Below are positions 1,524-15,700 of a DNA stretch of 64,000 nucleotides, piece by piece. The DNA comes from Heterorhizobium halophytocola (GTDB lineage: Bacteria; Pseudomonadota; Alphaproteobacteria; Rhizobiales; Rhizobiaceae). The position numbers were made by a program, and so were the translations under genes. How positions within the stretch are numbered: position 1 is the first letter of the stretch; each line of letters opens with the position of its first letter. The notes beneath the pieces were generated by a model. It saw nothing but the letters and a program-made list of their open reading frames with translations, did no database searches and was not told the origin of the DNA. The stretch covers positions 248,001-312,000 of the forward strand of contig NZ_JAGGJU010000001.1 in assembly GCF_017873095.1 (NCBI RefSeq). Reading direction: 5' to 3'.

Positions 1524-4500
1524 TCACGCCCGGCCGTAGCCGCCACCCGTCGGGGTGATGATGGTAATCGCTTCGCCGGCGGCAAGCTCGGTATGGGCGC
1601 AGCCGGCCAGGCTCTCGACCGAACCGTCCATGCGCCGCACCAGATTGCGCCCGCACTGGCCGGGCTCGCCGCCCTTGATGCCGAAGGGGGCAACCTTGCG
1701 ATGCCCCGAAAGCACGGAGCAGTCCATCGTCTCGCGAAAGCGGATGGTGCGACTGGTGCCATTGCCGGCATGCCACTTGCCCCGGCCGCCCGAATCCGGC
1801 CGGATGTGGAAGTCTTCGAGCACCACCGGGTAGCGCAGCTCGAGGATCTCCGGGTCGGTCAGCCGCGAATTGGTCATGTGGGTGTGGACGGCATCGGCAC
1901 CGTTGAAGCCGGGTCCGGCCGGCGCGCCCGAGCAGATCGTCTCGTAATACTGGTAGACGTCATTGCCGAAGGTCAGGTTGTTCATCGTGCCCTGGGCCGA
2001 GGACAGCGCCTCGAGCGCGCCGAACAGGCAGTTGGTAACAGCCTGGCTGACCTCGACATTGCCGGCGACGACGGCGGCCGGATAGGCCGGCGACAGCATG
2101 CTCTGTTCCGGCACGACGATCTCGATCGGACGCAGGCAACCGGCATTCATCGGGATCTTGCCGTCGACGATCATGCGGAACACGTAGAGCACCGCGGCCC
2201 TTGTGACCGGCTCCGGCGCATTGAAGTTGTCGTCGCGCTGACCCGACGTGCCGGTGAAATCCACCTTGGCCGACCGGGTCTTGCGATCAACGGTGATCTT
2301 CACCCTGATCTCGCAGCCCTGGTCCATCGGATAGGAGAATTCGCAGTCCTCCAAGGTCTCGATGGCACGGCGCACGCTCTCCTCGGCATTGTCCTGGACA
2401 TGGCCCATATAGGCCTGCACGACATCGAGGCCGAAATCGCCGATCGCCTTTTGCATTTCCGACACGCCGCGATTGTTGGCGGCGATCTGCGCCTTCAGGT
2501 CGGCAACGTTCTGGATCACGTTGCGAACGGGATAGCGGGCGCCGAGCAGCAATTCCCGGAGCTCCTTTTCCCGGAACCGGCCGCGATCGACGAGCTTGAA
2601 ATTGTCGATATAGACGCCCTCTTCCTCGATCGTGCGGGCATCCGGTGACATGGAGCCCGGCGCGATGCCGCCGACATCGGCGTGGTGGCCGCGCGAGGCG
2701 ATCCAGAACAGCACCGATGCGCCCGCGTCGTCGAAGACCGGCGTGCAGACCGTGATATCAGGCAGATGGGTGCCGCCGTTATAGGGGGCATTGATGGCAA
2801 AGACGTCACCCGGATGGAACGTGTCGTTGTTGCGGATGATCGACTGCACCGAACGGTCCATCGACCCCAGATGCACCGGCATGTGCGGCGCATTGGCCAC
2901 CAGCGTGCCGTCGGCATCGAAGACCGCGCAGGAAAAGTCGAGCCGTTCCTTGATATTGACCGAATAGGCGGTGTTCTGCAGCGTCAGGCCCATCTGCTCG
3001 GCAATCGACATGAAGAGATTGTTGAAGATCTCCAGCATGACGGGATCGGCGGTCGTGCCGGCGGCCTTGCGATCCGGCAGCGCGACGACGCGCTCGAGCA
3101 CGATATCGTCCCTTGCCGTCAGCTTCGCCTGCCAGCCGGGCTCGATGATCAGCGTCTGGTTCGGTTCGATCAGCAGGGCCGGACCGTCGATCACCCCGCC
3201 GGCCGCGATGTCCTCGCGTCGGTAGATCGCCGCATCCTGCCACTTGCCCTCGGAGAAGAACCGCGTTTGGCCACTCGACACGGCCTTGCCTTCCGCTTCC
3301 CCGGACGTCTCGATGGCATCCGGTGCGGTCGCACCACCGACGGCTTCCACCGAGACGGCCTCGACGACCAGATCCTTGCTGTCGTCGATGAAGCCGAAGC
3401 GCGCCTTGTGGGCGGCCTCGAAGGCCGTCTTCATCGGTGCCGGGTCCGCCCCGGCGATCAACGCCTTGTAGTCGTCCCCGGCCGAAAGCGTTGCGACCGG
3501 CACTTCCAGCGTGGTGTCGGTCCCGGCATAGCGCACGAGCGCGGCAAGCTTGATCTCGATCTGGCGGCCGGCAATCCCTTGCGTCTTCAATTCGTCGACG
3601 GCCTCGACGCAGAGCGGCTGGGAGATCGAGGCGATGGCGTCGATGGCATCGCCGAGCGAAATCTCGACCGCGCCCTGGCGCAGCGCCCGCACATCCGCAA
3701 GCCCCATGCCATAGGCCGACAGCAGACCGGAGAACGGATGGACGAGAACCTTCTTCATGCCGAGCGCGTCGGCCACCAGGCAGGCATGCTGGCCCGAGGC
3801 GCCGCCGAAGGCGTTGAGCGCATAGCGGGTCACGTCATAGCCGCGGGCAACGGAGATCTTCTTCACCGCCTCGGCCATATTGGCAACGGCGATCGTCAGG
3901 AAGCCCTCGGCCACCGCTTCGGGCGTGCGGCCGTCGCCGATCATGTCCGCCATGTCGGCAAAGCCCGCGCGAACCGCCTCCAGATCGAGCGGCTGGTCCT
4001 GGCTGGGTCCGAAGATCGCCGGAAACAGGTCCGGGTTCAGCTTGCCGGTCATCACGTTGGCGTCGGTGACGGTCAGCGGGCCGCCGCGGCGATAGCATTT
4101 CGGACCGGGATTGGCGCCGGCCGAATCGGGGCCGACGGTGAAGCGCGAACCGTCGAAATGCAGGATCGAGCCGCCGCCGGCAGCCACCGTATGGATCTGC
4201 ATCATCGGCGCGCGGATGCGCACGCCCGCCACCTCGGTCTCGAAGGCGCGCTCGTATTCGCCGGCGAAATGCGCAACGTCCGTGGAGGTACCGCCCATGT
4301 CGAAGCCGATCACATCGGGAAAACCGGCCGCAAGGCCGGTCTGAGCCAGCGCTACGACGCCGCCGGCCGGGCCGGAGAGAATCGCGTCCTTGCCCTGGAA
4401 CAGGTTCGCCGAGGTCAGGCCGCCGGATGACATCATGAACAGCAGGCGCGTGCCGGTGCGCTCCAGATCGAGTTCGTCGGCCACCTGCGCCACATAGCGG

Positions 4501-5159
4501 CGCAGCACCGGCGACAGATAGGCATCGACGACCGTGGTATCCCCGCGCCCGACGAACTTGATCAGCGGCGAGATCTCGTGGCTGACGGAAACCTGGTCGA
4601 AGCCGAGTTCGCGGGCGATCGCCGCGACCGCCTGCTCATGCTCGGGATAGCGGTAGGCGTGCATGAAGACGATCGACAGGGCTTCATAGCCCTCGTCCTT
4701 CAGCGCGGTGAGTGCCGCACGGACGGCTTTTGCGTCGGGCTTGATCTCGACGGTGCCGTCGGCCAGCACCCGCTCCTCGATCTCTTCGACCCGGTCGTAG
4801 AGCAGTTCGGGCTTCTCGATATTGCGGGCGAAGATGTCGGCGCGGCCCTGATAGCCGATCGCCAGGCCATCGCGGAACCCCTTCGTCGTGACCAGCGCCA
4901 CCTTGACGCCCTTGCGCTCCAGCAGCGCATTGGTCGCGACCGTGGTGCCCATGCGCACCTCGCCGACGAGGCCGGCGGGGATCGCATCTGCGTTCTTCAG
5001 CCCGAGCAGTGCGCGAATGCCCGCAACGGCGGCGTCGCGATAGGCTTCAGGGTTTTCCGAAAGCATCTTGCGGGCATGCAAGGTCCCGTCGGGGGCGCGG
5101 CCGATGACATCGGTAAATGTGCCGCCACGGTCGATCCAGAAATCCCACTGCATGTCCAT
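1524..5159 (-). CDS. Fused HyuA-HyuB protein: 5-oxoprolinase / hydantoinase family
   Basis: A protein of about 1211 residues, the usual length of single-chain ATP-dependent 5-oxoprolinases, which cleave 5-oxo-L-proline to glutamate; related enzymes act on hydantoins. The N-terminal half is hydantoinase A-type: the start [14 protein letters not shown], then [16 protein letters not shown], an actin-fold ATP-site motif. The C-terminal half, from about [12 protein letters not shown] onward, is hydantoinase B-type and ends in the family's glycine-rich tail PTGGGYGRA. The ATG at 5159 is preferred because it lies just before the conserved N-terminus; ATG 5153 is possible, and upstream in-frame codons add a non-conserved tail. 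It is divergent from a TRAP transporter operon, suggesting uptake and cleavage of one cyclic amide. The exact substrate is unknown. Confidence 0.9.
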
Positions 5160-13232: not shown

Positions 13233-13580
13233 GATGTCCGATCCCTTTTCTGCCGACGACTGAGCGGATGGCCGGAACAATAGTCCCCAACCCGCATATC
13301 GCAATGCGACATCTCGCCATGCGACAGCTGTGCACACATCCTATCCTAATAGCGGATCGAATCCGACCTTAAGCAAGAAATCAATGATCGGTTGATTTAG
13401 CAAATAATTTTGCAATTCTCAGCCGCAGGGATTTCGCATTGGGAATGACGGATACGACTGGGAGGTCGCAACAGCAGTCCCTCAAGAAAAATAGTTGAGC
13501 GTGCACCCCCGCCTCGCTTCCATAGGTTCATTGCCTGCTGCGAACATCTCCGTAATCGAGAAGCGTGGAGTTCGTTGCCT
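13233..13580. other. Intergenic region between divergent cydA and XRE genes
   Basis: About 350 bases without a gene, holding both divergent promoters. Visible are a direct repeat ATGCGACA (13304-13311 and 13319-13326), an AT-rich patch at 13376-13420, and an inverted repeat ATCAA-N7-TTGAT (13380-13396). No open frame of convincing length or codon use was seen. Confidence 0.6.
13304..13326. promoter_or_regulatory. Direct repeat upstream of cydA, possible regulator site
   Basis: Two exact copies of ATGCGACA start 15 bases apart, about 72-94 bases upstream of the cydA start. The spacing, about one and a half helical turns, suits a response regulator. TGCGRC-like cores are reported for the RegA/ActR redox regulators that control terminal oxidases; applying that here is inference. 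Confidence 0.35.
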
Positions 13581-13952
13581 ATGATGGACCACTCCGGATC
13601 GGACCGTGCGGATCTGAGCAGGGGCAGCAGGCTGCGCAAAGCGATGAGCGAGAAAGGTTACGCCAAGCAGCACGCTTTCGCGGTGGCGCTCGATGTCAGC
13701 GAAAGCACCGTGACCCGGTGGCTTGCCAACGGCCCGATGTCGCTCGACAGCGCGGCCGATATTTGCCTGACCTTCAATATCTCGCTGGATTGGCTGGTCC
13801 TCGGACGCGGCGAAATGCGTCCTCTTCCCGAGGCCGCGAAGCGGGTCATCCCCGAAGCCCCCAGCATCGTTACCTTCGCCCGGCTCTACAAGGCGCTTCC
13901 GCCCAAATCACGCGAATTGCTGGATTCCTTCATGCAATCCTTAAGTGCATGA
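13581..13952 (+). CDS. XRE (Cro/CI-type) helix-turn-helix regulator
   Basis: A 123-residue protein. Residues about 17-62 are a Cro/CI-type HTH: RLRKAMSEKGYAKQHAFAVAL, the recognition segment VSESTVTRWLANG, then LDSAADICLTFNISLDWLVLGRGEM, a common phage-repressor-type ending. The remainder (LPPKSRELLDSFMQSL) is a short helical tail with no peptidase domain, so it does not look like a self-cleaving repressor. ATG 13581 is chosen because GGAG lies 10 bases upstream; ATG 13584 and TTG 13575 are alternatives. Two same-strand genes of unknown function follow after a structured leader, so it may control them. Confidence 0.8.
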   Translation: MMDHSGSDRADLSRGSRLRKAMSEKGYAKQHAFAVALDVSESTVTRWLANGPMSLDSAADICLTFNISLDWLVLGRGEMRPLPEAAKRVIPEAPSIVTFARLYKALPPKSRELLDSFMQSLSA

Positions 13953-14006
13953 TCGGTCTTTTCCTTTTCTCTGCGTGCAATGACCGATCGCCGAAATTGC
14001 ACGCAG
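13951..14006 (+). promoter_or_regulatory. Two interlocking inverted repeats: pseudoknot or operator candidate
   Basis: GATCGGTC (13951-13958) is complementary to GACCGATC (13982-13989), and CTGCGTGCAAT (13971-13981) is exactly complementary to ATTGCACGCAG (13996-14006). The arms interlock: arm 2a lies in the loop of stem 1, and arm 1b lies in the loop of stem 2. This is the order of an H-type pseudoknot, with a 12-nt pyrimidine-rich first loop, no junction and a 6-nt last loop. As DNA, the same repeats could be operators for the XRE protein. It overlaps the XRE stop codon and precedes the unknown gene at 14113. Confidence 0.55.
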
Positions 14007-14112
14007 GGGAATAGGCAAGACTCCTTCGCTTCTACCCAGAATAGTATCCTTCGAATGCTGAATGATGATCAGCAGTCAACAGGGGGCACCCCCCCTTACA
14101 GGGAGAAGCAGG

Positions 14113-14775
14113 ATGACGACCTATACGCTGAAAGTGCGCAACCTCTCCGAGTTTGCCAAGAGCTATGTCTGGTTCATGGAACCGCCCATCGTTACGTCGA
14201 AAGGCGGCTCGACGCCGGTGTTCACCAATGCCTGGGTCACCTTCAATGCCGTGACCAGCGGCAGCAACGACACGGTGATCTATACCGACGAGACCTTCGC
14301 CTACTGGTCGAAGACGCCGATCCAGGTTGCGCCGGGCACCACGATGGGCGAGGCCGGCGATGCCCCGGTCGACACTTCCCTGCAGGACACGTTGTCGTTC
14401 TTCGGCTCGGTGGCCACCGGCGGAGTGGGCTTCGGACCGGTCACCCATGGCGGCGCGTCCACCGGCTCCTACAGCATCATCACGACCTGTGATTTCAACC
14501 GCTCGAACGGTTATCTGTTCGGCCTTGCCCGCCCCGGCAGCATTCCGGGCATTCCCTCGCCCGTCGCAACCTTCGTCGCCCAGCCCAACGAAACCTACAA
14601 CGTCACACCCGTCATCAAGTTTTTCGTCTCGGACGGGCTCTTCGTGCCGGGTGCCATCATCGACTACGGGCAGGTGTCGACGAAGGCGCAGGTGGTCGAT
14701 TTCACCGGCAGGTCCCAGACCTCGGTGGTCGTAACCCATGGTGAAAACGGCGATTTCTCGGCCGAATACTACTGA
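14113..14775 (+). CDS. Protein of unknown function, first of a pair
   Basis: A 220-residue protein that I cannot place in a named family. It has no signal peptide, membrane segment or enzymatic motif. It is rich in Thr, Ser, Gly, Val and aromatic residues with short alternating patterns (TNAWVTFNAVTSG, DTVIYTDETFAYWS), which suggests a beta-sandwich fold. It contains one cysteine. The start has a strong GGGAG site at 14100-14104. It lies 161 bases after the XRE gene and 82 bases before a second unknown gene on the same strand, and the three look like one cassette. A role in binding or secretion is possible but unsupported. Confidence 0.6.
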   Translation: MTTYTLKVRNLSEFAKSYVWFMEPPIVTSKGGSTPVFTNAWVTFNAVTSGSNDTVIYTDETFAYWSKTPIQVAPGTTMGEAGDAPVDTSLQDTLSFFGSVATGGVGFGPVTHGGASTGSYSIITTCDFNRSNGYLFGLARPGSIPGIPSPVATFVAQPNETYNVTPVIKFFVSDGLFVPGAIIDYGQVSTKAQVVDFTGRSQTSVVVTHGENGDFSAEYY

Positions 14776-14857
14776 ACACGAGCGTCAGAGCAGCGGCGCG
14801 GCCGCCCGTGGACGCGCCGCATCCGTCTTCAAAGCACCTCATCGAAAGGACAGGATC

Positions 14858-15700
14858 ATGGTAGGCTATAGCAGCTTCGTCACACCGCAGGGCAATGTCG
14901 TTCCGGTAATCAACGGCGGCCGGTATTTCGGCGACTTCATCAACACGGCCACATTCACCCCGAAATGCGCCGAGGGCGAATACCGCCAATTCGTCAAGGG
15001 CGAGTTCGTGGCGAACGGCTCGGTGGTGTCGCACAGGCTTTGCGGAAATTTCTACCTCCAGAAGGGCAGCTATCAGGAAGATGGCTGCCCGCCCGGGAAT
15101 GCACCCGGCGTCAGGGCCTACGGCTATCGCAGCCGCCTTGGCGACGGCTATGATCGTTACGCGCCGTCCCAGTCGGACGGCTGCACCTATGCCATGTTCG
15201 ACGCCCCCGGTTTCAACCATCTCAAGAAGGATATAACCTACAAGATCGACCTGACTTTCAAGGCCGACCTGATCGACACGTCGAAGAAGGCAGTTCTCGT
15301 CAGCAAGGAATGGACCGTGTCCGGCCAGACGGTCGCGCATAGCTCGGAGAAGGAAACCATGGCGGACAATGGCCTGTCGCCTCTGCCTCTGGGCGAAGAC
15401 GACTATGTGCTGCGGACCTACCAGACCATCAATCTGGAAACCAAGGAGCCGGAGGTTCATATCGTCGTGGGCCGCAAGGTCGGCCTGGCCCCGCTCGACC
15501 CGGCCTCACTGCACATCGAGGTGACCGACGGCGAGGACCATCCGGTGGCCGCCGGCAAGCCGGTCATCTACGAGGTCGGCGATCTTCGCTCGGCAACGGC
15601 AACGATCGTCGTTCCGCTGACGCACAAATGCGAAGGCGCGGCCAAGGTGCGCCTGTCCAGCAAGGCCAATGCCGTACTGCTCACCATTCACCCCAGCTGA
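14858..15700 (+). CDS. Protein of unknown function, second of a pair
   Basis: A 280-residue protein without a recognised family, signal peptide or membrane segment. The first half has six cysteines in spaced motifs: CAEGEYRQF, LCGN, DGCPPG, DGCTYAMFDAPGF. The segment EYRQFVKGEFVANG looks like a conserved core. The second half is Lys/Asp/Val-rich with beta-like alternation (TYKIDLTFKADLIDT, VHIVVGRKVG, SATATIVVPLTHKC). The start follows GAAAGGACAGG. It ends close to a hairpin shared with serA. The pairing with the gene at 14113 suggests that the two products act together. Function is unknown. Confidence 0.6.
   Translation: MVGYSSFVTPQGNVVPVINGGRYFGDFINTATFTPKCAEGEYRQFVKGEFVANGSVVSHRLCGNFYLQKGSYQEDGCPPGNAPGVRAYGYRSRLGDGYDRYAPSQSDGCTYAMFDAPGFNHLKKDITYKIDLTFKADLIDTSKKAVLVSKEWTVSGQTVAHSSEKETMADNGLSPLPLGEDDYVLRTYQTINLETKEPEVHIVVGRKVGLAPLDPASLHIEVTDGEDHPVAAGKPVIYEVGDLRSATATIVVPLTHKCEGAAKVRLSSKANAVLLTIHPS

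Follow-up and report, generated by a model that had tools for sequence, protein, structure and literature searches.

Tandem operators are a known arrangement among CI-type regulators. Phage CI-type repressors are small XRE/CI-type helix-turn-helix (HTH) regulators; next to their own genes they have dyads in pairs, an integral number of helical turns apart. The locus described here, in a window of 64 kb (the whole stretch of DNA analysed), resembles them in these respects, whereas its operator sequence and target genes differ. A second described group is the PraR/CdxA-type of Alphaproteobacteria (PMC4149787, PMC5527310, PMC10688885). These sources describe XRE proteins that use short palindromes in promoters, as is proposed for the window, but that are widely conserved and serve several promoters, whereas the window regulator is local and lies beside its probable target. 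PraR of Azorhizobium and R. leguminosarum has the SELEX consensus CAAC-N5-GTTG (PMC5527310), a site that the window leader lacks; R. leguminosarum PraR targets are reported to carry a TTGCAA motif (PMC4149787) and Caulobacter XRE proteins use one strong and one weak half-site (PMC10688885). A literature search returned no paper whose title concerns this TTGC/GCAA site, a thin result that is no proof of novelty.

Our analysis suggests that two 15-bp dyad operators, acting as DNA and bound by dimers of the neighbouring XRE/CI-type protein, probably control the gene pair at 14113–15700.

Interlocked repeats and paired dyads behind the regulator gene

The XRE/CI-type regulator gene (13575..13952, + strand) is an open reading frame of 125 aa from a TTG at 13575, with an ATG at 13581 as alternative start. 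Its product matches Phage_CI_repr (PF07022) at a Pfam E of 2.8e-9, above the gathering score, and reads SESTVTRW in the recognition-helix region. The nearest solved relative by sequence is the repressor protein CI, 2fjr, a weak match (E 0.034). The protein had no match in phage records, and DNA 13575–14112 had none in plasmids.

Two exact inverted repeats follow. The arms of stem 1 (8 bp) are GATCGGTC at 13951–13958, starting within the stop codon of the XRE gene, and GACCGATC at 13982–13989; those of stem 2 (11 bp) are CTGCGTGCAAT at 13971–13981 and ATTGCACGCAG at 13996–14006. The sequence check confirmed the interlocked order 1a-2a-1b-2b with spacers of 12, 0 and 6 nt, as the initial annotation had described it. 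Perfect repeats of at least 11 bp with loops of up to 40 are enriched, with 10 in the 64-kb window where 60 shuffled ones averaged 1.08. The interlocked pair of 11 and 8 bp is the sole one in the window, and one of the 60 shuffled windows also had one; interlocked 8 × 8 pairs as a class were not above chance (1, shuffle mean 0.42). When the 11-bp repeat was held fixed and its surroundings were shuffled, an interlocking 8-bp repeat arose in 21 of 4000 trials, and with ten 11-bp repeats in the window, rough arithmetic makes such interlocking an approximately 5% event per window. The 8-bp repeat that gives the pseudoknot look is thus evidence of modest weight.

Two further features had been missed. 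A longer imperfect repeat (13956–13981 and 13996–14021, 77% complementary) encloses the 11-bp repeat, and two 15-bp near-copies in opposite orientation, 13/15 identical, lie at 13966–13980 and 13997–14011. The composite scan predicts these near-copies as operators, each with 7/8 letters of TTGC-N7-GCAA: the left one (13966..13980, + strand) reads TTTC-N7-GCAA, and the right one (13997..14011, − strand), an inverted near-copy of the left, reads TTGC-N7-GGAA. Their centres are 31 bp apart. Together they form a composite at 13966–14011, TTTC-N7-GCAA-N16-TTGC-N7-GGAA, which scores 14/16 and is the only match of at least 14 in 64 kb for N7 dyads with N16 or N17, where 60 shuffled windows gave a mean of 0.017. 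Leader shuffles reached 14/16 in 1 of 5000. The composite model was drawn up with the window's GCAA-N16-TTGC core (the inner half-sites) already in view; only the outer half-sites, with 6/8 letters, therefore count as an independent match (about 0.4% by chance, by arithmetic). The stretch 13340–13574 held no composite of at least 12.

Judged from the letters, stem 2 (13971..14006) would be the inner half-sites of two mutually inverted operator copies together with flanks. The inner parts would form a perfect 11-bp repeat because the 15-bp operators are 13/15 identical when one is inverted, and this perfect repeat would be conspicuous because both operators have diverged in their outer halves. 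The 8-bp repeat of stem 1 is not conserved and is probably incidental. The initial proposal of overlapping DNA operators for the XRE protein is supported solely at the 11-bp repeat, which makes up the inner parts of two separate dyads.

Recurrence of the composite site with the recognition helix

At E 0.001, relatives of the XRE protein were found in 13/63 genus genomes and 35/394 family genomes, and at E 1e-8 in 10/397 order genomes and 2/385 class genomes, own genome counted in each case. One is present in a same-genus genome and one on an Agrobacterium vitis plasmid; altogether 99 plasmid records contain relatives, and six of these were examined. Among loci with a gene table, hypothetical genes come after the XRE gene in L032, L034 and L083. 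Further along in L034 is a gene annotated rhiC; rhi genes are described in PMC13133039. In L032, from a Sinorhizobium plasmid, the XRE relative is followed by an Evf-family gene (3041–3898; PF18270, E 1.3e-40). On Rhizobium plasmids (L035, L036) the XRE relative stands beside luxI/luxR-type genes and is followed by a glucoamylase-type and a GMC-type gene.

We analysed 38 XRE rows, leaving out L017–L020 and the weaker family matches L049–L064, and dropping L034, which is the same place as L011. Recognition helices were grouped by eye. The ES type comprises the window, L032, L045, L048, L065, L069, L070, L071 and L085–L088, with L045 (SPSTVTRW) counted as ES despite its differing letters; the B/C type comprises AAVSRW, AAITKW and similar helices, and the remaining loci were classed as others. 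In the tree, the 22 B/C rows group together with good support (96/96). The window protein and ten ES rows lie in a branch of 13 with weak support (62/81), which includes L016, L038 and L067, and L045 and L071 fall outside it. The ES label is not one clade, but it is clustered on the tree, requiring 5 changes where shuffled labels required a mean of 10.6 (0/500).

Among relatives of the regulator whose recognition helix resembles that of the window protein, the composite site recurs in the matching position. Its form, TTGC-N7-GCAA-N16/17-TTGC-N7-GCAA past the stop codon of the XRE gene, with two dyads about three helical turns apart, was read from L085–L088, all four of which score 16/16. L045 scores 16/16 with N6 dyads, L069 and its near copy L070 score 14/16, and L032 and L048 score 13/16. 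The site is missing past the stop in L065 (11/16) and L071 (9/16), so that 8/10 ES relatives reach at least 13/16. Of the 15 B/C loci, two (L008 and L033) reach a score of 13 and the remaining 13 stay at or below 11; none of four loci with other helix types reached 13. As background, a wider spacing set gave 12 matches of at least 14 in 214,560 bases, L045 not included; five of these are the operator places of L069 and L085–L088, and seven lie elsewhere.

Composites were also seen before or near the start of XRE genes. In L071 a 15/16 composite precedes the open frame of the XRE gene by about 100 nt, so that it lies upstream instead of downstream, which perhaps reflects autoregulation. L085 and L086 have weaker composites (13) near the start of the XRE gene.

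The half-site TTGC[AG]C, counted in either orientation within 110 nt past the stop, occurred 9 times in eight ES-type loci (shuffle mean 1.82, 0/1000 shuffles). Two loci of this set, L037 and L067, are ES only in a loose sense, and the motif had been picked after viewing the set. L037, L067 and L071 had no copy in this interval. In 14 B/C loci, 5 copies were found against 2.68 expected from shuffles (120/1000). Because the motif had been chosen after looking, the test was fixed beforehand and then applied to four new loci, L085–L088, where 11 copies were counted (shuffle mean 1.74, 0/2000 shuffles); these loci are mutually related, belonging to one family with three from one genus. In addition, the 9-mer TTGCACGCA of the window occurs at a similar place in the L048 leader and is absent in 67/71 loci, three of the four carriers being the window itself.

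RNA folding, PraR-type regulators and other explanations

The interlocked repeats had been offered as a pseudoknot leader or as mutually exclusive hairpins, which on a read-through transcript spanning the XRE gene and gene 1 would act as a leader switch. The exact arms and the 21/4000 chance of interlocking around the 11-bp repeat speak for such a switch, as does the strong fold of the + strand (−34.4 kcal/mol, z −4.61; − strand weaker, z −3.68), but the strand folds best as a plain extended hairpin and the energy figures refer to that structure, not to a pseudoknot. Both stems were compared in relatives, where their loss had been named as the refuting outcome. In six rows that share the operator geometry, including two near copies, stem 1 retains 2–4 of 8 pairs and stem 2 retains 6–7 of 11, G-U pairs counted, and many of the pairs in stem 2 come from the common GCAA/TTGC letters. 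Neither stem gives any sign of pairing constraint in these rows. Moreover, none of 36 other leaders folds as strongly as the window (lowest z −3.16 in L013, then −2.37 and −2.18), and Rfam gave no family at gathering score, its two matches being microRNA models far below it. We consider either form of RNA switch very unlikely. A use on two levels, in which the operator pair works as DNA and a very stable read-through RNA hairpin additionally attenuates or protects the gene 1 message, seems improbable; here the inverted operators would fold as an RNA hairpin, with the coding strand favoured by G-U pairs, in this lineage alone.

If the site is DNA, it might serve a regulator other than the neighbour, for example a PraR-type global XRE protein. 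The TTGCAA motif (PMC4149787) is near to the half-site seen here, but the SELEX consensus (PMC5527310) has no match of at least 6/8 letters in 13900–14115, and the composite tracks which type of helix the local XRE gene encodes. We therefore regard a foreign regulator as unlikely. That the hairpin starts at the XRE stop codon would suit a transcription terminator of this gene, or membership in a dispersed family of palindromic repeats; however, a search of 13300–14300 for terminator-like sites (a G+C-rich hairpin followed by a T run) found 0, and the own genome contains no second copy, the matches besides the element and its own reverse complement being 14–24 nt long at E 0.2 or worse. Both candidates were rejected, and we give them hardly any credence. 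Two operators of the neighbouring XRE protein remain our preferred explanation.

A 19-bp palindrome, AAACAACTTaAAGTTGTTT, emerged from a fit to 16 other leaders with a score of 88.0; none of 12 shuffled sets scored above 37.8. It recurs 21–87 nt past the XRE stop in 14 of the 16 fitted leaders, L008 and L033 being without it; the loci listed for it are L009–L013, L032, L035, L039, L041, L043, L046, L047, L066, L068 and L083. Since its core equals CAAC-N5-GTTG, the PraR consensus (PMC5527310), the palindrome was dropped as proof of XRE operators past the stop and is not used as evidence; either the global regulator or the local XRE protein may use it. An earlier model of the window site as this 19-bp dyad plus one helical turn was likewise abandoned for the composite model. 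CAAC-N5-GTTG also occurs between composite and gene 1, twice each in L085 and L086 and once in L087, with CAAT-N5-GTTG in L088. Their positions, 53–67 and 98–136 nt past the XRE stop, would suit a promoter used jointly by the local XRE protein and a repressor of the PraR type at these four loci.

The gene pair and a model of its control

Two genes follow the site on the + strand: gene 1 (14113..14775, 220 aa) and gene 2 (14858..15700, 280 aa), the latter probably in the same operon. Neither has a known family, as no Pfam or NCBIfam match was obtained at E 1. The gene 1 relatives of L003, L004, L005, L021 and L024 had no Pfam family at E 0.5, and gene 1 had no solved relative at E 10. Its structure model has a mean pLDDT of 56 and found no match at E 0.001 in a fold search, so we claim no fold for it. 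Searches of plasmids with genes 1 and 2 found none. At E 0.001, own genome counted, gene 1 matched in 4/60 relatives and 7/394 family genomes, the others being 25–31% identical. Closer copies occur in L021–L023 (Tardiphaga/Bradyrhizobium; 62–63%) and in L024 (Caulobacter; 47%), and gene 2 is also found in L021 (42%).

At L021 the leader comes after a different regulator gene, a LuxR-type HTH (GerE, E 8.1e-13), and L022 and L023 read alike. These loci thus have the same target pair as the window and a different regulator. At the very end of their LuxR-type HTH gene (4868–4880) is a perfect CAAC-N5-GTTG.

The composite ends 101 bases before the gene 1 ATG in the window, and the corresponding distances are 106 in L085 and L086 and 103 in L087 and L088; the 11-bp repeat of the window ends 106 bases before this ATG. 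No promoter was recognised in the leader. Two further symmetries of the window leader were noted. A dyad TGCTGA-N7-TCAGCA at 14056–14074, between operators and gene 1, has the same N7 spacing and could be chance, and a hairpin AGGGGG-CACC-CCCCCT at 14081–14096 immediately precedes the probable ribosome-binding site of gene 1.

According to our model, the dyads TTGC-N7-GCAA, with centres 31 bp or three helical turns apart and so on one helix face, would be occupied by two dimers of the XRE/CI-type protein, one per dyad. We infer that this protein binds the composite. The two dimers would presumably cooperate on their common face, and genes 1 and 2 would be the target, so that the bound dimers would control the pair at 14113–15700. 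The 101 bases between the right operator and the gene 1 ATG place the site probably upstream of the promoter, and activation is for this reason slightly favoured over repression.

Inverted operator copies with worn outer halves can mimic an interlocked pseudoknot. In place of an RNA puzzle, this reading would give a concrete operator consensus, TTGC-N7-GCAA paired at 30–32 bp, for one group of XRE proteins in this bacterial order, and it would offer a handle on when the gene pair 14113–15700 switches on.
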